A stretch of 64,000 nucleotides of DNA from Desulfuromusa kysingii (GTDB taxonomy: Bacteria > Desulfobacterota > Desulfuromonadia > Desulfuromonadales > Geopsychrobacteraceae). The stretch's first letter is position 1, and each line of letters opens with the position of its first letter. Below are positions 32,677 to 41,733 of the stretch, piece after piece. The notes under the pieces are model-generated. The model was given only the letters and a program-made list of their open reading frames with translations. It had not been told where the DNA came from and searched no databases. A program made the position numbers and the translations under genes. Where the stretch lies: contig NZ_FNQN01000008.1 of the NCBI RefSeq assembly GCF_900107645.1, forward strand, positions 1 through 64,000. Reading direction: 5' to 3'.

Positions 32677-33978
32677 TCAATAAATGCTACTTATCCCGAA
32701 GAATTCTGGAAAAACAATTAAAATAGCCAACACAAAGACCTGAATGATAATAAAAGGGACAACTCCTTTGTAAATATCTGTCGTCTTAACTTCAGACGGA
32801 GAGACCCCTTTTAAATAAAATAGGCTGAATCCGAATGGCGGGGTAAGAAAGGAGGTCTGCAGATTCATGGCCACAAGGATTGCATACCAGATCGGATTAA
32901 TCCCCAAGTTGGCCGCAATCGGTGCCAGAATCGGTACGATGATATAGGAAATTTCAACAAAATCGATAAAAAATCCAAGAACCATAATCACCAGCATGGA
33001 TAGAATCAGGAATCCCCATTTGCCTGCAGGCAACCCCATCATGAAATCTTCAACCAGGTAATCACCACCGGTGTAAGTAAAAACCATTGAAAACGCCGTG
33101 GCACCAACCAAGATAGCAAAAACCATTGCCGTAATTTTAACGGTTTCCAGAGCGCTATTCCACACCATTTTTATCGATAACTGTCGATACATTCCCGCTA
33201 AGATCACAGCCCCCACACCACCGACAGCAGAAGATTCAGTTGGTGTCGCAACCCCGAACAGAATAGAGCCGAGCACCAGAACGATCAAGGTCAATGGAGG
33301 GATAATCGCTTTAAGTGCTCTAATAACCTGCTGTTTTTTAGTCCCATACTCCTTCCCGTCCAGATGAATAGGGGGAGCCAAGTCTTTTTTAAAATAAGTC
33401 AGGATAGCAATATAAATGACATAAAACAGCACCAGAGAGACTCCAGGCCAAAAAGCCGCCATAAACAGGTCACCCACCGGCACTTGAAAAACATCCCCAA
33501 GAATGATCAGAATAATGGAGGGTGGTATAATCTGTCCAAGGGTTCCTGCCGCGCAAATCGCACCCGTCGCCAATTTTTTATCATAGTTATATTTCAACAT
33601 AACTGGCAGAGAGATAACTCCCATAGCAACGACACTCGCTCCAACCACCCCTGTGGAGGCTGCCAATAACGCCCCAACCAAAATTGTTGAAATAGCGACA
33701 CCACCGCGCATTTCACCGAACAGAAAGCCCATGGATTCAAGCAACCGTTCTGCTAACTTGGATTTTTGGAGGATAATTCCCATAAAAATAAACAGCGGGA
33801 TTGCCATCAGAATCGTGTTGTTCATCACCGACCAGATACGGTGCGGCATCATGGCAAACATGCCCTGACCTTCTGCAATCAGACCAAAAACAACGGCAGC
33901 GCCTCCAAACGTAAATGCTACCGGAAAGCCCAACAACAGCAATCCCAGGCAAACAGCAAACATTATTAAACCAATCAT
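32677..33978 (-). CDS. dctM: TRAP transporter large permease DctM (system 1)
   Basis: 433 residues with about 12 hydrophobic helices. LGFPVAFTFGGAAVVFG at the N-terminus and the sodium-site region STGVVGASVVAMGVISLP are typical of DctM, with NLQTSFLTPPFGFSLFYLKG in the second half. It forms the sodium-driven translocator with the small subunit encoded just upstream. The set dctP-dctQ-dctM runs on the minus strand. It is closely similar in motif content to the second DctM at 39159-40478. Confidence 0.93.
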   Translation of the reverse strand: MIGLIMFAVCLGLLLLGFPVAFTFGGAAVVFGLIAEGQGMFAMMPHRIWSVMNNTILMAIPLFIFMGIILQKSKLAERLLESMGFLFGEMRGGVAISTILVGALLAASTGVVGASVVAMGVISLPVMLKYNYDKKLATGAICAAGTLGQIIPPSIILIILGDVFQVPVGDLFMAAFWPGVSLVLFYVIYIAILTYFKKDLAPPIHLDGKEYGTKKQQVIRALKAIIPPLTLIVLVLGSILFGVATPTESSAVGGVGAVILAGMYRQLSIKMVWNSALETVKITAMVFAILVGATAFSMVFTYTGGDYLVEDFMMGLPAGKWGFLILSMLVIMVLGFFIDFVEISYIIVPILAPIAANLGINPIWYAILVAMNLQTSFLTPPFGFSLFYLKGVSPSEVKTTDIYKGVVPFIIIQVFVLAILIVFPEFFGISSIY

Positions 33979-34037: not shown

Positions 34038-34577
34038 TCAGAGGATATTATCTTCAATCTTTTGTTGCGGGAAAGGCTCCAACCCACGGTAAATACGGAT
34101 ATTCCGCACGACAAATCCCAGGGCAGATATAATCAAAAAAATAAAAGAGAGCGGGATCACAGCCTTGATCAGATAGGTATGCGTTAGCCCCCCTGGATCA
34201 CCGCTGATTTCACCCATCGAGTAAGATTCATGGACAAACCAGATCGAACCACTAATAATCAAATAAGCGAGGGGAATCAGAAAAAATACGGTTCCAGCAA
34301 TATTAACAATGGCTTTCACTTTAGGGCTGAAGCCATCATATAAAACATCGACCCGCACATGTCCTTCTTCTTTTAAGGCATAGGAGATTCCAAAGAGAAA
34401 AACGATAGAAAAAATGTGCCATTCCAACTCTTGCATTGCAATGGAACCAGTACGGAAAAAGTAGCGTAAGATGGCATCATAAAATACGTTGACCAACATC
34501 ACCAACATCAGGACAGCTGAGATCCAGCCGATAACGTCGGAAAAACGATCCAGAATTCTTTCAACTTTTAACAGCAT
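34038..34577 (-). CDS. dctQ: TRAP transporter small permease DctQ (system 1)
   Basis: 179 residues with four hydrophobic helices. MQELEWHIFSIVFLFGISYALKEEGHVRVDVLY contains the family pattern with an acidic-aromatic loop; only its flanks QELEWHIF and HVRVDV need be cited for recognition. ATG 34577 is chosen since it begins the amphipathic N-terminus (MLLKVERILD) and has AGGAT upstream; an upstream in-frame start at 34649 would add 24 residues overlapping the intercistronic hairpin. Confidence 0.9.
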   Translation of the reverse strand: MLLKVERILDRFSDVIGWISAVLMLVMLVNVFYDAILRYFFRTGSIAMQELEWHIFSIVFLFGISYALKEEGHVRVDVLYDGFSPKVKAIVNIAGTVFFLIPLAYLIISGSIWFVHESYSMGEISGDPGGLTHTYLIKAVIPLSFIFLIISALGFVVRNIRIYRGLEPFPQQKIEDNIL

Positions 34578-34614
34578 AATAATCCTGCCGATGACTAATA
34601 GAGGTAAAAAGAGG

Positions 34615-34661: not shown

Positions 34662-35747
34662 TTATTCAAGATTATCTTTTAAATATGCGTAATCAGAAAT
34701 TTCCGTCCAGCGACGTGCTTTTTTCATGTAAGCAGTTTGCGCATCATAAATCTTCTTAAACATAGGGTCTTTAGCCGCAGAAGCTTGTAACAGTTTTTCA
34801 TTTTCAACCTTCATTGCAGCAATGACATCTTTAGGGAAAGTTTTGACTTTAACGTTGGGATATTCGGTCCCCAACTTATCAATGTTTACAGCACTATCAT
34901 TATAGGAACGTGCATACATGTCATAAGCGGAGAATTCCATCGCAACTTCAAGAATTTTTTGCAAATGTTTCGGTAATGCGTCAAACTTTTTCTGATTCAC
35001 CAGAAATTGCAGTTCTGTTGCAGGCTCATGCCAACCGGTATAATAATAAGGGGCAATTTTATGAAACCCCATATTCAGGTCGAGCGAGGGACCTACCCAC
35101 TCCAGAGCATCAATGGTGCCACGATCGAGAGCAGTGTAAAGCTCACCTGGAGGGATGTTTGTGACAACAACACCAAGCTTGGAAAGGACTTCACCCGCAA
35201 AGCCTGGAACCCGCATCTTCAGACCTTGCAAATCACTTAAGCTATTGATTTCTTTCTGAAACCAACCCCCCATTTGATTACTGGTATTACCACCGGGATA
35301 AGAATAGACACCATGGCGGTCGTACACTTCTTTCATCAGCTCCATGCCGCCACCATAATAGAACCAGGCATATTGCTCTGGAGCAATCATACCAAAGGGC
35401 ATAGTCGTAAAGAACATCGTATTCATGTCCTTACCTTTCCAGTAATAAGACGCTGAGTGCCCCATCTCATACTGTCCCGCCTTAACCATATCGAGAACAC
35501 CAAAAGCGGCCTTATGCTTATTGGCTGAATCGATGCGGATTTCCATCTCGCCGTTCGACATCTCCTTAACTAGATCGGCCATTTTGATAACAGCATCCCC
35601 AAAGATAGGAAAGCCTGTCCCCCATGTCTGAGCCAACTTCCAGCGATACTTGGGAGCTGCTTCAGCCTGAGGGGCTAAAATCCCCACCAGCAACAACGAG
35701 CAAACGGTCAGGAGACAAACTGTCATTCGCAGTACAGATTTTTTCAT
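34662..35747 (-). CDS. dctP: TRAP transporter substrate-binding protein DctP (system 1), 2-oxoacid/TakP-like
   Basis: 361 residues with a Sec signal peptide (MKKSVLRMT, hydrophobic core, cleavage near AEA). The mature protein has the branch-specific strings YPGGNTSNQMGGWFQKEI and GLKMRVPGFAGEVLSKLG. In my recollection these are typical of the TakP/monocarboxylate group, which binds pyruvate, lactate and other 2-oxoacids. GTIDALEWVGPSLDL holds the conserved ligand-contact region. ATG 35747 has GGAGGAAAAG directly before it. Exact ligand is not proven. It is the first gene of the dctPQM operon. Confidence 0.9.
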   Translation of the reverse strand: MKKSVLRMTVCLLTVCSLLLVGILAPQAEAAPKYRWKLAQTWGTGFPIFGDAVIKMADLVKEMSNGEMEIRIDSANKHKAAFGVLDMVKAGQYEMGHSASYYWKGKDMNTMFFTTMPFGMIAPEQYAWFYYGGGMELMKEVYDRHGVYSYPGGNTSNQMGGWFQKEINSLSDLQGLKMRVPGFAGEVLSKLGVVVTNIPPGELYTALDRGTIDALEWVGPSLDLNMGFHKIAPYYYTGWHEPATELQFLVNQKKFDALPKHLQKILEVAMEFSAYDMYARSYNDSAVNIDKLGTEYPNVKVKTFPKDVIAAMKVENEKLLQASAAKDPMFKKIYDAQTAYMKKARRWTEISDYAYLKDNLE

Positions 35748-35930
35748 CCTTTTCCTCCACATCCAAAGTAAAATAATTATGGGATGACAAAGATATAGCC
35801 ACTATAATCGTAGACATACAAACTCACCCCAGCTGCCAATATACTGATGATAAGGGCACTCCAACCTGCCCTTTCTCAACTCTGAAAATTTAAACTGGGG
35901 GGAAACAATAGACCAAGGAGTGAATAGGTT

Positions 35931-35959
35931 AGCGGTCGCATAGATCAATTAAGCGGTAG
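35931..35959 (-). promoter_or_regulatory. Candidate LytTR operator: 21-bp-spaced direct repeats upstream of dctP
   Basis: AGCGGTCG (35931-35938) and AGCGGTAG (35952-35959) are direct repeats whose starts are exactly 21 bp apart, two helical turns. LytTR regulators bind two direct repeats at such spacing. The site is 184 bases before the dctP start, next to the LytTR regulator gene. A near-identical pair occurs at 38444-38472. Binding is inferred, not shown. Confidence 0.45.
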
Positions 35960-35984
35960 ATTAACCGGTGACCTATCTTTTGCC

Positions 35985-36695
35985 TCAAAGTTGCAATGAA
36001 ACCTTCAGTTGACGCAGATATCTGCGACTGACCGGAAGGGTGTTACCTGCTCGAGTTTTAATTTCACCCAAACCATTAGCAAAAAAGATGATCTCATCAA
36101 TCCGTTCAGGATTGACCAGATACTGCCGTTGACAACGCAACAGTGCGGTCCGTTCTTCCAGGACTCGTAAAGTCAATTCCGTAAAAAAATGACCATCGTG
36201 AGTCACAACATAAATTCCAGCGACATCTGAATAGACATAATCAACGGTTGCGGGAGAGATAAACTTAACCCTATTGGCAAATTGACAGGGAATATGGCTC
36301 AAAGATTCAGCTTGATAGCGGGGAGGATCTCCCCGTCGAATCATATCTCGGACCTTATTGACCGTCTTCAATAGTCTTTGTGGAGAGACCGGTTTGAGTA
36401 AATAATCGAGAGTTTTTTCTTCAAACGACTTCAAAGCATATTCATTATAAGCCGTGACAAAAACAACATGTGGCATAAGCTCATCTTCAAGCATTGCCAA
36501 TAATTCAAAGCCATTTAGCGCTGGCATTTCAATATCAAGAAATATCAGTTCCGGTTTTTCTGTACGAATTTTGCGCAGAGCATCTATGACATTGGTGCAG
36601 GAACCAAGAATCTCAAACACTCCGGTTGCTCGCACAAGGTGTTCAAGTTCCTCGCGTGCATGTTGTTCATCATCAATGATTAGCGCCCGAATCAT
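35985..36695 (-). CDS. LytTR-type response regulator
   Basis: 236 residues. An N-terminal receiver domain has acidic residues DDE at 8-10, phosphoacceptor Asp54 in IFLDIEMP, and Lys in LLKPVSPQRLL. A C-terminal LytTR DNA-binding domain follows, with RVKFISPATVDYVYSDVAGI and a late RCQRQYLVN segment. It is the partner of the overlapping LytS-type kinase gene (23-base overlap), resembling the BtsSR, YpdAB and LytSR systems. BtsSR and Bacillus LytST respond to pyruvate, which fits the flanking 2-oxoacid TRAP genes. The likely targets are those transporter genes. Confidence 0.92.
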   Translation of the reverse strand: MIRALIIDDEQHAREELEHLVRATGVFEILGSCTNVIDALRKIRTEKPELIFLDIEMPALNGFELLAMLEDELMPHVVFVTAYNEYALKSFEEKTLDYLLKPVSPQRLLKTVNKVRDMIRRGDPPRYQAESLSHIPCQFANRVKFISPATVDYVYSDVAGIYVVTHDGHFFTELTLRVLEERTALLRCQRQYLVNPERIDEIIFFANGLGEIKTRAGNTLPVSRRYLRQLKVSLQL

Positions 36696-38370
36696 CTAAT
36701 ATCTCTTTATCTAAGGGAAACTTTATCTGCACTAAAGTCTTCTCATGCGGGACACAAGCAACTGTAAGACCAAACTCCTGCCCATAAATATTCTTTATCC
36801 GCCGATCAACAAGTCGCATTCCCAGCCCCTGAGGCTCAATGGGTGGACGATAATTTCCTGCATTATCCTCTACCTCTATAATAACAAATCCTGTCTCGCA
36901 GTAAGCCCGAACCCATACTTTTCCATGATCAAGAAGGTGAGCGACTCCATGTTTAATCGCGTTCTCAATAAGTGGTTGTAAGGTAAAAACTGGAATTTGC
37001 AAATTCAACAAGACAGGATCAATTTGTTGGTAAACAAATAAACGCTCACCAAAACGAGCTTTTTCTATTTCCAAATAGGAGCCGATATGCGCCAATTCTT
37101 CTTCTAAAGTGACAATATCCTGGCTCCGTTTCAGATTGGTCCGAAAGAATGTAGAGAGTTGCAACAACAATTCACGTGCCTGTCCCGCATCTTTCCGGAC
37201 AACCGCCATGATCGTATTTAATGCATTAAATAAGAAGTGAGGATTGACCTGTGCCTGAATCAGTTTCAACTCAGACTGCACTAATAGAGATTTTTGTTCT
37301 TCGAATCGGGAGCGCAACAATTGATGGGAATACAGCGTCGCCAAACCTTCACCAAACGACCGATTGATATTAAGAAACAACTTTGTTTTAGGTTCGTAAA
37401 GACTGATGGTTCCGACAACCTCCTGATCCACTTGCAACGGTACCACCAAAACAGAGCCAATCGGACAGTTGTCCACCAATGGACACTTAAAGTTTTCATT
37501 AAAGCCATCGGCGAAGACAACCCGGTTTTCAAATAACGCCTGTTTCGACCATTTGCTGACGACAGAATTCCCGGCATGATGATGATCTGCACCAATTCCT
37601 GAAAATGCCAGAATTTCACTTCGATCGGTAATCGCAACAGCGCCAACTGCTGTTTCTTCGCGGATAATTTCAGCCATTTCCCGCGCCGTTTCAGAGCTGA
37701 ATCCACGACTTAAGATTCCTAAAGTACGATCTGCCACAGTGAAAGCTTTCGAAGAAAACAGGGCTCCGACCTTATCTCGAACGCGACGCTGGTCCCTCAC
37801 CATACTCATAAACAATGCAGCACCAACAGAATTGGCACAAATCATCGGCAGCGCTATCACCTTGACCAGAGCAACAGCATCAGTAAAAGGACGGGCCATA
37901 ATCAGGATGATCGTCATCTGCAACATCTCAGCAACCAAAGTCGTCGCAAAAGCGATTAAAGGATGAAACACCTGCTCAGGTTGTTTACGGCGGTTCAAAT
38001 AAAGATAGACCAGTCCACCGACAAGTCCCTCAACTGTGGTTGAAATGCCACAGGAAAAAGCAGTAAACCCACCAAGGGAAAATCGATGCAAACCGGCAGT
38101 CAGACCAACCGACAGTCCTAATATCGGTCCTCCAATCAGGCCAGCAAGGACAGCCCCAATAGCTCGAGTATTGGCAATCGCTCCCTGAATCGGCAACCCT
38201 TCATAGGTTCCAAGGATTGAAAACAATGAGAAAACGACATAAAGGAACAGAAGTTGTCGTTTTTGTAACTTCCCTCCTGACAGATAGTCCATCGCCGGGG
38301 ATTTACTGAACAGGTACGCGACAACAATGAGTACTGCCGTCTGCTGCAGAAGCTCAAACATTAGCAACAT
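36673..38370 (-). CDS. LytS-type sensor histidine kinase (5TM-LYT, GAF, His_kinase)
   Basis: 565 residues. The N-terminal 190 residues hold the 5TM Lyt receptor (FSILGTYEGLPIQGAIANTR, LIGGPILGLSVGLTAGLHRF). A GAF-type domain spans about 210-350 and contains two cysteines (CPLVDNCPIG, 296-302). The kinase core follows with phospho-His378 in QVNPHFLFNALN and the ATPase boxes N (PLIENAIKHG) and G (GLGMRLVDRR). AAGGA precedes ATG 38370. It overlaps the regulator gene by 23 bases. By analogy to BtsS and LytS it may sense pyruvate or a related acid outside the membrane. Confidence 0.92.
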   Translation of the reverse strand: MLLMFELLQQTAVLIVVAYLFSKSPAMDYLSGGKLQKRQLLFLYVVFSLFSILGTYEGLPIQGAIANTRAIGAVLAGLIGGPILGLSVGLTAGLHRFSLGGFTAFSCGISTTVEGLVGGLVYLYLNRRKQPEQVFHPLIAFATTLVAEMLQMTIILIMARPFTDAVALVKVIALPMICANSVGAALFMSMVRDQRRVRDKVGALFSSKAFTVADRTLGILSRGFSSETAREMAEIIREETAVGAVAITDRSEILAFSGIGADHHHAGNSVVSKWSKQALFENRVVFADGFNENFKCPLVDNCPIGSVLVVPLQVDQEVVGTISLYEPKTKLFLNINRSFGEGLATLYSHQLLRSRFEEQKSLLVQSELKLIQAQVNPHFLFNALNTIMAVVRKDAGQARELLLQLSTFFRTNLKRSQDIVTLEEELAHIGSYLEIEKARFGERLFVYQQIDPVLLNLQIPVFTLQPLIENAIKHGVAHLLDHGKVWVRAYCETGFVIIEVEDNAGNYRPPIEPQGLGMRLVDRRIKNIYGQEFGLTVACVPHEKTLVQIKFPLDKEILDDSGANH

Positions 38371-38443
38371 AGAAAATCCTTTTGATAACCTTCTTCACTC
38401 AGCATAAAGGGATTCATATAACTCTGCAAAGGTTTCACGACCC

Positions 38444-38472
38444 AGCGGTCAGCAAAGACTCATTAGTGGTCA
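38444..38472. promoter_or_regulatory. Candidate LytTR operator between lytS and dctQM (system 2)
   Basis: AGCGGTCA (38444-38451) and AGTGGTCA (38465-38472) are direct repeats with starts exactly 21 bp apart. They lie in the divergent spacer, 74 bases from the lytS start and 140 bases from the dctQ start. Sequence and spacing match the repeat pair upstream of dctP (35931-35959). Role is inferred. Confidence 0.45.
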
Positions 38473-38611
38473 TAACCGAGTAATCCCTGCCAAGACGGAC
38501 CGTTCTTCAATAAAACAAGGATTAATTATTGACTCAAGACAGAAGTTGACAGATTATTACGGGTTCGTTTTTTTCACGGCCTTAAATATCTCTGCGTAAA
38601 ATGGAAACTTT

Positions 38612-39166
38612 ATGAAACTAATCCAGCGAATCGTTCTTACGATAGACAAACTGAGCACCAAGATTGGTCATCTGACGTCCTGGCTTAGCACGATCTTGGT
38701 TTTAACTGTCTGCTACGATGTCTTTACCCGTTATTTTTTACGCAAAAGCAGTGTTGGGGTGCAAGAACTGGAGTGGCATATCTTTGCCGTGCTGTTCATG
38801 CTCTCAGCAGCATACACCCTAAAGATCGACAAGCATGTTCGAGTCGATGTCATCTACACCCAGTTATCACCTCGGGCGAAAGCTTGGGTCAATATGCTTG
38901 GCGGGATTATATTCCTGATTCCCTTTTCAATTTTAGTCATCTGGGCTTCACAAGGATTTATCAGCATGAGCTGGGCCATCCAGGAAACCAGTCCCGATCC
39001 AGGGGGCCTTCCCTGTCGTTATCTCTTAAAGGCGATGATTCCGGTTGGCTTTGGTTTACTTCTCCTCCAGGGGATCGCCCAGATCCTGCGCTCATTTTGT
39101 ACTGTGATCGGTCATCCGATGGAAGACAGTAACACCGAAGAGATAGAGGAACGGTACCATGCCTGA
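38612..39166 (+). CDS. dctQ: TRAP transporter small permease DctQ (system 2)
   Basis: 184 residues with four hydrophobic helices. VGVQELEWHIFAVLFMLSAAY and KHVRVDVIY match the DctQ family and resemble the system 1 protein. GGAAAC lies before the ATG. The 3' end overlaps dctM by eight bases, so the two are coupled. Divergent from the LytS kinase gene, with the repeat pair in between. The matching binding-protein gene is not upstream but downstream on the opposite strand (40553-41647). Confidence 0.92.
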   Translation: MKLIQRIVLTIDKLSTKIGHLTSWLSTILVLTVCYDVFTRYFLRKSSVGVQELEWHIFAVLFMLSAAYTLKIDKHVRVDVIYTQLSPRAKAWVNMLGGIIFLIPFSILVIWASQGFISMSWAIQETSPDPGGLPCRYLLKAMIPVGFGLLLLQGIAQILRSFCTVIGHPMEDSNTEEIEERYHA

Positions 39167-40478
39167 ATATATGTCCCTGGTTCTATTTGCCACAGTTTTT
39201 TCTCTTTTGCTGCTGGGCTTTCCGGTCGCATTCACCCTGGGCGGGGTCTCTCTGATCTTTGGTTATTTCACCTTTGGATTAGGACTGTTCCAACTGCTCC
39301 CCTTGCGGATCTGGGGGACGATGAACAATTATGTCCTCATCGCCGTCCCCCTGTTTGTCTATATGGGGCTCATGCTTGAAAAATCCGGGCTGGCTGAAGA
39401 GCTCTTGGAAACCATGGCCATGTTGTTTGGAAAATTGCGCGGTGGTCTGGCCATTTCAGTTATTGTGGTTGGAGCTGTCCTCGCAGCCTCTACCGGGATT
39501 GTTGGTGCGACCGTTGTCACCATGGGGCTACTATCGCTCCCGACGATGCTCAAACGTGGTTATTCCCCCGAACTGACAACCGGAACAATCTGTGCTGCCG
39601 GAACCCTGGGCCAGATCATCCCCCCCAGTATTGTTCTGGTTCTCCTTGGTAGCGTCCTTAACGTCTCTATTGGTGACATGTTTATCGGGTCAGTTATTCC
39701 TGGGATCATATTGGTCAGTTTGTATATCCTCTGGATTGTCATTGTGGCATTTATCCGCCCTGATGCAGCGCCAGCAATGCCTGCAAGCGAACTTGCCGAT
39801 TTCAGAAAAAACGGGATGTACAAAAAAATCTTCCGTGCATTTCTCTTGCCCTTCTTTCTGATTGTTGCAGTGCTGGGTTCAATTTTTGCCGGCATCGCTT
39901 CACCGACTGAAGCGGCAGCAGTTGGGGCAATGGGTGCAACCTTCTTGACCATCTGGCAAAAAAAGTTCAACCTTCACACCCTACGTGAAGTGATGCGCGG
40001 CACAACCACAATTACCTCTATGGCATTTATCCTCATTGTCGGCGCGAGCGCTTTTGGACTTGTTTTCCGTGGCATGGGAGGAGATCGTTACATCACCAAT
40101 CTCATCCTCAGCACAGGGATGGAACCTGGACACTTTCTCCTCATTGTCATGCTGATCATATTCGTTGCTGGGTTTTTCATCGACTTTATCGAAATCACCT
40201 TTATTATCGTTCCTGTCGTAGCACCAATTTTTCAACATATGGGGATCGACCTTCTTTGGGTGGGGATCTTGATTGCCATGAACTTACAAACATCATTTCT
40301 GACCCCCCCTTTCGGTTTTTCATTGTTTTATTTAAAAGGAGTTGCTCCTCCAGAGATTACCACCTATCAGATCTATAAGGGGATCATCCCCTTTATCGTC
40401 ATTCAGATGATCTGCCTTTTCGTCGTCGTTATCTGGCCTGAGACGGTGACCTGGTTACCGGGATACATGTCAAAATAG
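39159..40478 (+). CDS. dctM: TRAP transporter large permease DctM (system 2)
   Basis: 439 residues, about 12 hydrophobic helices. LLGFPVAFTLGGVSLIFGY, ASTGIVGATVVTMGLLSLP and MNLQTSFLTPPFGFSLFYLK are DctM signatures shared with system 1. GAGGA precedes the ATG, and the start overlaps dctQ by eight bases. It forms the sodium-coupled channel with DctQ. A strong terminator follows 25 bases after the stop. Confidence 0.93.
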   Translation: MPEYMSLVLFATVFSLLLLGFPVAFTLGGVSLIFGYFTFGLGLFQLLPLRIWGTMNNYVLIAVPLFVYMGLMLEKSGLAEELLETMAMLFGKLRGGLAISVIVVGAVLAASTGIVGATVVTMGLLSLPTMLKRGYSPELTTGTICAAGTLGQIIPPSIVLVLLGSVLNVSIGDMFIGSVIPGIILVSLYILWIVIVAFIRPDAAPAMPASELADFRKNGMYKKIFRAFLLPFFLIVAVLGSIFAGIASPTEAAAVGAMGATFLTIWQKKFNLHTLREVMRGTTTITSMAFILIVGASAFGLVFRGMGGDRYITNLILSTGMEPGHFLLIVMLIIFVAGFFIDFIEITFIIVPVVAPIFQHMGIDLLWVGILIAMNLQTSFLTPPFGFSLFYLKGVAPPEITTYQIYKGIIPFIVIQMICLFVVVIWPETVTWLPGYMSK

Positions 40479-40552: not shown

Positions 40553-41647
40553 TCAATCGAATAATTCATAGTAAGGTTGTTCTGAAATCTTACTCCAAGC
40601 TAACTGTTGCTTTTGAAATGCTTTAAAACTGTCATAAACTTTTTGACTCTCAGGATCATTGGCAACGGCTTCTTCTAAAACCTCTACAGAGTATTTCCGT
40701 AGCTGTGAGATGACATCCGCTGGGAACTTTTTGAGGATAACCCCTTCCTCCTTGAGCATCTTGTCCAAATAGATATTATTTTTAGCTTCCGACTCACAGA
40801 GCACCCACATATTCGATGCGATAGTCGCGTTAGTCACGATTGCCTGTAAATCCTCCGGCAACGCCTCATAAGCACTTTTATTGACGAAAGATTCGAGAAC
40901 ACTACCGGCTTCATGCCAACCGGGATAATAGTAATACTTGGCAACCTTGTAGAAACCCATCATATAGTCATTATAAGGACCAACCCACTCGGTTGCATCG
41001 ATAACACCGCGCTCAAGATTGGTATATAGCTCACCGCCAGCGGAAAGGACAGCAGTCCCTCCTGCTTTGGATAGAACCTTCCCCCCTAAGCCCGGAATGC
41101 GCATTTTCAAACCTTTGAAATCATCCATGCTTTTGATTTCGCGATTAAACCAACCGCCCATCTGCACACCGGTATTGCCTGCAGGTAGTGGCTTCAAATT
41201 AAACTTACTGTAAACGTCTTCCCAAAGTTTCATCCCGCCGCCAGCATAAAGCCAGGCGTTCATCGCCTGCGCATTCATTCCAAAAGGGACAGCCGCAAAG
41301 AATTGAGCTGCGGGAGACTTTCCGGCCCAGTAGTAGGCGGCGCCATGCCCCATCTCTACCATCCCTTGGCTGACAGCATCAAAGGCCTGGAGGGCTGGGA
41401 CCAGTTCTCCGCCACCATACACCTGGATATTCAGACGACCGCCAGACATCGTCCTAATCATCTCGGCCAGTTTGTCCGCACCCTCACCTAGCAGTGGAAA
41501 GTGAGGAGGCCAGGTTGTGACCATCTTCCAATTATAGGTTTTCTCAGCTCGAACAATCGCTGGTGCTCCGATCGTTGTTGCTGTAGCCGCGACCGCTGTA
41601 GCTGCCGTCGCCTTCTTAAGAAAATCTCGCCGAGTGTTATTTTCCAT
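40553..41647 (-). CDS. dctP: TRAP transporter substrate-binding protein DctP (system 2), Tat-exported
   Basis: 364 residues. The N-terminus is a twin-arginine signal (NNTRRDFLKKATAATAVAA, cleavage near VRAE), unlike the Sec signal of the system 1 protein. The mature part has PAGNTGVQMGGWFNREI and LKMRIPGLGGKVLSKAGG, placing it in the same TakP/2-oxoacid-type group. GVIDATEWVGPYNDYMMG is the ligand-contact region. ATG 41647 has AAGGAGACG upstream; an in-frame start seven codons earlier does not. It converges with its presumed permease genes dctQM and is downstream of a PAS kinase gene on the same strand. Confidence 0.9.
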   Translation of the reverse strand: MENNTRRDFLKKATAATAVAATATTIGAPAIVRAEKTYNWKMVTTWPPHFPLLGEGADKLAEMIRTMSGGRLNIQVYGGGELVPALQAFDAVSQGMVEMGHGAAYYWAGKSPAAQFFAAVPFGMNAQAMNAWLYAGGGMKLWEDVYSKFNLKPLPAGNTGVQMGGWFNREIKSMDDFKGLKMRIPGLGGKVLSKAGGTAVLSAGGELYTNLERGVIDATEWVGPYNDYMMGFYKVAKYYYYPGWHEAGSVLESFVNKSAYEALPEDLQAIVTNATIASNMWVLCESEAKNNIYLDKMLKEEGVILKKFPADVISQLRKYSVEVLEEAVANDPESQKVYDSFKAFQKQQLAWSKISEQPYYELFD

Positions 41648-41733
41648 GAACGTCTCCTTGCAAGTCATTTAATGAAAGTATTTATCCGGATGTGAGAATA
41701 TAATTCGGTTCTATAAATGTCAAACCTTTGCAG

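Follow-up and report, generated by a model that had tools for sequence, protein, structure and literature searches.

The window analysed here, a 64-kb stretch of the Desulfuromusa kysingii genome, carries on its minus strand a two-component pair consisting of the sensor kinase gene btsS (36673..38370) and the response regulator gene btsR (35985..36695), which overlap by 23 bp (36673-36695), suggesting coupled translation. The regulator, composed of a receiver and a LytTR domain, is 44% identical to BtsR of Escherichia coli, belongs to the NCBIfam equivalog BtsR (301.3 bits against a cut-off of 246) and is the genome's sole LytTR protein. The kinase matches no NCBIfam model; it shows the 5TM-5TMR_LYT, GAF and His_kinase architecture of BtsS and is about 50% identical to the E. 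coli protein. According to a previous study, the pyruvate site of E. coli BtsS consists of Arg72, Arg99, Cys110 and Ser113 (PMC10653868), and all four residues are kept here, together with the phospho-accepting His382 (E. coli numbering). The pair, which the original prediction had labelled lytSR, is therefore BtsSR of the pyruvate type, as judged from the BtsR score and the pyruvate residues of BtsS. As well, BtsS relatives in two other loci, L040 (4325-6004) and L047 (4324-6000), no longer carry the pyruvate residues (Gly72, Leu99 and Tyr110 in both, and additionally Ala113 in L047) and are candidates for sensing a different ligand, while L040 retains a BtsR-type box after btsR despite this loss.

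The btsR gene is followed, in the same orientation, by dctP1 (34662..35744, minus strand; the ATG at 35744 after GAGGAAAAGG was chosen as the start), dctQ1 (34038..34583, minus strand) and dctM1 (32677..33978, minus strand), which encode a TRAP solute-binding protein (Pfam DctP), a small permease and a large permease, respectively, so that all three subunits of a TRAP transporter are present. Divergent from btsSR is a second TRAP permease pair, dctQ2 and dctM2 (38612..40478, plus strand). The dctP2 gene (40553-41668, minus strand) is convergent with that pair and not in the same operon, and has no BtsR box upstream. A serine dehydratase gene, the product of which makes pyruvate, directly follows dctP2 in the related locus L029 (978-2192), and an ORF of the same length occupies this position in L027 (997-2211); the window has no serine dehydratase gene after dctP2.

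The closest solved structures to DctP1 are 4pet and 5cm6 (E below 1e-155), which we take to be pyruvate-containing structures, followed by ketoacid binders. In TakP, six residues hold pyruvate and a cation (PMC1839085), and DctP1, at 34% identity overall, keeps all six (Tyr100, Gln156, Arg177, Glu214, Trp215 and Glu240); DctP2 also keeps the TakP ligand residues. DctP1 is thus predicted to be a binder of the pyruvate or 2-oxo acid type. The signal and the cargo might instead be another small carboxylate, such as lactate or another 2-oxo acid, with BtsR still bound to the repeats described below: the PDB entries near DctP1 comprise lactate-binding as well as ketoacid-binding TRAP proteins, and it has been suggested that LytS kinases can have other ligands (PMC10653868). 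We regard this as unlikely if quite conceivable, since BtsS keeps the complete pyruvate site, including Cys110 and Ser113, which are variable in other kinases, and DctP1 keeps the TakP site.

The genome encodes no CstA/BtsT-type carrier, the class to which the pyruvate symporter BtsT of E. coli is assigned (PMC7730263). Elsewhere in this broad group, BtsSR loci have a CstA-family carrier after btsR or near the pair, and in L033, L035, L041, L043 and L053 such a carrier, instead of a TRAP transporter, adjoins BtsSR; one switch is thus paired with two unrelated transporter classes.

Both spacers flanking the two-component genes contain a pair of direct repeats, as originally predicted: AGCGGTCG and AGCGGTAG at 35931 and 35952, and AGCGGTCA and AGTGGTCA at 38444 and 38465, all exact, on the plus strand and 21 bp start to start. 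Their orientation relative to transcription is likewise the same, the first pair (box 1) pointing at dctPQM and the second (box 2) at btsSR. These are the only exact matches to AGYGGT-N15-AGYGGT in the 64-kb window, and 100 shuffles of the window yielded none. In the genome scan that the original prediction had proposed as a check, the pattern occurs five times across 3.74 Mb against 16 for the reversed control, which is no enrichment, while the three matches outside the two spacers all lie inside long ORFs. Genome-wide enrichment of the motif was accordingly rejected as proof. The 20-bp variant of the pattern is not enriched genome-wide either (one match against eight in the control), and a wider genome search allowing two mismatches returned 17 places against 44 in controls. 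Of the two-mismatch places examined, only the known site falls outside a long ORF, and on this basis we claim no additional members of the regulon.

The recurrence of one hexamer and one spacing in two short spacers had been described as hard to explain by chance, which proved too strong. A blind test, in which any 6-mer pair common to both spacers at a spacing of 10 to 32 was sought, found this pair alone in the real sequences, and at least one shared pair in 7% of Markov shuffles (p ~0.07). Significance derived from the two window spacers was therefore rejected as strong evidence; taken within the window, the repeats are suggestive and not decisive. Since the repeats by themselves are only weakly beyond chance, the case for the sites rests on comparative evidence, namely the relatives, the spacing and the promoter geometry.

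Read in gene direction, the repeats match a known operator, the E. coli BtsR (YehT) box, in core and spacing. Box 1 (35929..35957, minus strand) reads ACCGCTTA-ATTGATCTATGCG-ACCGCTAA, with the distal half-site at 35950-35957 and the proximal one at 35929-35936, and box 2 (38442..38470, minus strand) reads ACCACTAA-TGAGTCTTTGCTG-ACCGCTGG, with half-sites at 38463-38470 and 38442-38449; 13 bp separate the half-sites in each. The E. coli btsT promoter carries ACCGCTTA-CATCCCTAAAATA-ACCACTCA, oriented likewise and located 137 bp ahead of the start codon. Both window boxes thus consist of direct ACC(G/A)CT half-sites with 13 bp between the 8-mers. The full half-site consensus, which we take to be ACC(G/A)CT(C/T)A, is not present in both halves of the boxes; the six-base core is intact, and positions 7-8 are TA and AA in box 1 and AA and GG in box 2, positions at which the half-sites of relatives vary too. 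The arrangement ACCGCTTA-N13-ACCACTCA corresponds to the printed YehT-binding oligonucleotide or fragment from btsT (PMC4847170).

With a scoring matrix derived solely from E. coli and distant loci, the two boxes take first and second place in the 64 kb, at 21.88 bits for box 1 and 12.95 bits for box 2. The best site in each of 60 resampled windows averaged 11.68 bits with a maximum of 18.57, so that box 1 exceeds all 60, and box 2, which falls within this single-best-site null, leans on conservation and not on its score. The repeat pairs are almost certainly docking sites for a regulator that, like BtsR of E. coli, responds to pyruvate. Another sequence, ACCGGTTA, located 12 bp upstream of box 1, was treated as incidental, as it is not conserved among relatives.

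The comparison of orthologous spacers, also proposed originally, was run on 29 loci with btsR relatives (the window and L027-L054), the closest of which in public genomes come from Desulfuromusa and Deltaproteobacteria, and both boxes reappear at corresponding positions in close relatives. All six of the closest (L027-L032) have box 1 in the btsR-dctP spacer, no pair deviating from the core at more than one base, and five of these six (L027-L031) have box 2 upstream of btsS, including L031, although dctQ2 is absent next door. In the alignments, conservation is concentrated in islands formed by the half-sites and promoter hexamers; this is clearest for the btsS spacer, where the invariant columns are almost confined to the half-sites, the -35 and the -10. 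Among Desulfobulbales loci with the order dctPQM-btsSR, boxes precede dctP in L039 and L045, and several others have degenerate boxes only. Several relatives (L033, L036, L037, L038, L039, L043 and L045) have arrays of three half-sites spaced by 20-21 bp and resemble E. coli btsT in this respect; the window boxes have two half-sites each.

The spacing of exact half-site pairs over the 29 loci is sharply peaked, with 10 pairs at 20 bp, 12 at 21 bp and two or fewer at each of the remaining spacings between 7 and 60, while sequence resampled from the same loci gave approximately zero. No half-site pair at 20 or 21 bp was found in 614 kb around other LytTR-type relatives. It could be supposed that the repeats bind some other regulator and that the neighbourhood of btsSR is incidental, yet in sequence and spacing the repeats equal the BtsR box of E. 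coli, and the boxes stay with btsSR when the gene order and the adjoining transporter change, which makes this supposition very improbable.

The geometry of the promoters provides further evidence. A predicted sigma70-like promoter for dctPQM (35888..35916, minus strand) consists of TTGGTC (35911-35916) and TTAAAT (35888-35893) separated by 17 bp, and one for btsSR (38401..38429, minus strand) of TTGCAG (38424-38429) and TATGCT (38401-38406), also 17 bp apart; each begins 12 bp after its box. These -35 and -10 elements of dctP and btsS fall below the consensus threshold of a generic promoter scan, which misses them, and their -35 hexamers are poor, a feature to be expected of promoters that depend on an activator. 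We aligned 24 sites, chosen for a box and not for a promoter, on the proximal half-site. The mean sigma70-like score peaks 11-13 bp after that half-site and reaches 11.46 at 12 bp, the highest value among 300 shuffles being 8.29; ten divergent representatives give 10.90 at 12 bp, which no shuffle reaches. As the 29-locus spacing set and the 24-site promoter set include related sequences, these counts are not to be read as independent events. In E. coli btsT, the sigma70-like fit at the 12-bp position is poor.

With the promoter geometry added, coincidence as the source of the two repeat pairs becomes barely credible: it is compatible with the blind test and with the lack of genome-wide enrichment of the core pattern, and is disfavoured by the positional conservation among relatives, the spacing peak and the fixed distance to the promoter. 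It is somewhat less improbable, though still doubtful, that box 1 is a BtsR site and that box 2 serves the divergent dctQ2-dctM2 rather than btsSR, or serves both. Box 2 lies within the spacer common to btsS and dctQ2, dctQ2-dctM2 also encode a TRAP permease pair, and the nearby DctP2 keeps the 2-oxo acid ligands. Control of this pair by box 2 is uncertain. Against such an assignment, the box 2 half-sites point at btsS, the conserved -35 and -10 at the standard 12 bp distance are on the btsS side, and L031 retains the box without dctQ2. Moreover, a separate promoter-like site for dctQ2 lies about 59 bp from box 2 (38529..38557, plus strand; TTGACT, 17 bp, GATTAT), which comes from the generic scan, where the number of promoter-like sites is not above that of shuffles.

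We therefore favour the reading that both repeat pairs are operators of the adjacent BtsSR and that dctPQM and btsSR are activated in response to pyruvate, with a probability of roughly 0.87; the phosphorylation, the binding, the activation and the ligand are what we infer. The original proposal of a LytTR regulator at paired direct repeats two turns apart gains from the conservation, from a promoter geometry shared by the two sites and from the presence of a single LytTR protein, and its suggestion of transporter control together with autoregulation is likewise favoured by the conservation, the L031 arrangement and the promoter geometry. A pyruvate sensor beside a predicted pyruvate importer that is preceded by the operator of the sensor forms a coherent unit.

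In the proposed mechanism, the early steps of which rest on work in E. coli and the DNA steps on sequence evidence, external pyruvate, or a 2-oxo acid closely resembling it, would bind the membrane domain of BtsS, which would then phosphorylate BtsR and lead to its dimerisation. The half-sites lie two turns (21 bp) apart on the same side of the helix, with their centres at approximately 55 and 76 bp ahead of the transcription start; each would hold one BtsR LytTR domain, and BtsR would recruit RNA polymerase to a weak sigma70-like promoter with its -35 starting about 12 bp downstream. Activation from box 1 would drive dctPQM and increase the uptake of pyruvate or another 2-oxo acid, while box 2 would drive btsSR itself, resulting in positive autoregulation.

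The nearest known system is E. coli BtsS/BtsR (YehU/YehT) acting at the btsT (yjiY) promoter, which has the same regulator family, half-site core, 13 bp spacer and orientation, and the pyruvate-binding residues of its kinase are conserved here. The target in E. coli is the CstA-family symporter BtsT, whereas here it would be a TRAP importer; the btsT promoter has a third half-site 20 bp upstream, which is not seen at that spacing in the window. As well, the additional box upstream of btsSR has no counterpart in the E. coli btsS-mlrA spacer, and autoregulation cannot therefore be assumed to be ancestral. In the sulfate reducer Desulfovibrio vulgaris, the LytR-type regulator DVU0596, also encoded beside its kinase, controls a nearby CstA-family transporter gene (PMC3333781); its targets are the cstA copies and kdp (PMC3333781), unlike the TRAP transporter here. 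E. coli YpdA/YpdB and yhjX similarly combine a LytS/LytTR pair with a direct repeat and a pyruvate response, but with a different half-site, GGCATTTCAT.

BtsSR and the BtsR box are already known, as is the control of cstA by a LytTR regulator in Desulfovibrio. The openly licensed papers searched contained no report of a LytTR or LytS protein paired with a TRAP transporter, and likewise none of a box before btsSR. What appears to be new is the TRAP importer as output and an extra autoregulatory site, both within a known kind of circuit. Probably, BtsSR in Desulfuromonadales and Desulfobulbales kept the box and the promoter geometry and exchanged its output between CstA and TRAP, and the Desulfuromusa group gained the autoregulatory box.

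If true, a LytTR system would be in control of a TRAP transporter. The analysis predicts the ligand, regulator, operator, promoter and target of an anaerobe TRAP importer from sequence only. In addition, it shows that the BtsR box as defined in E. coli is usable for reading BtsSR regulons far beyond the gamma-proteobacteria, and it argues for one switch being paired with non-homologous carriers, probably for the same nutrient.
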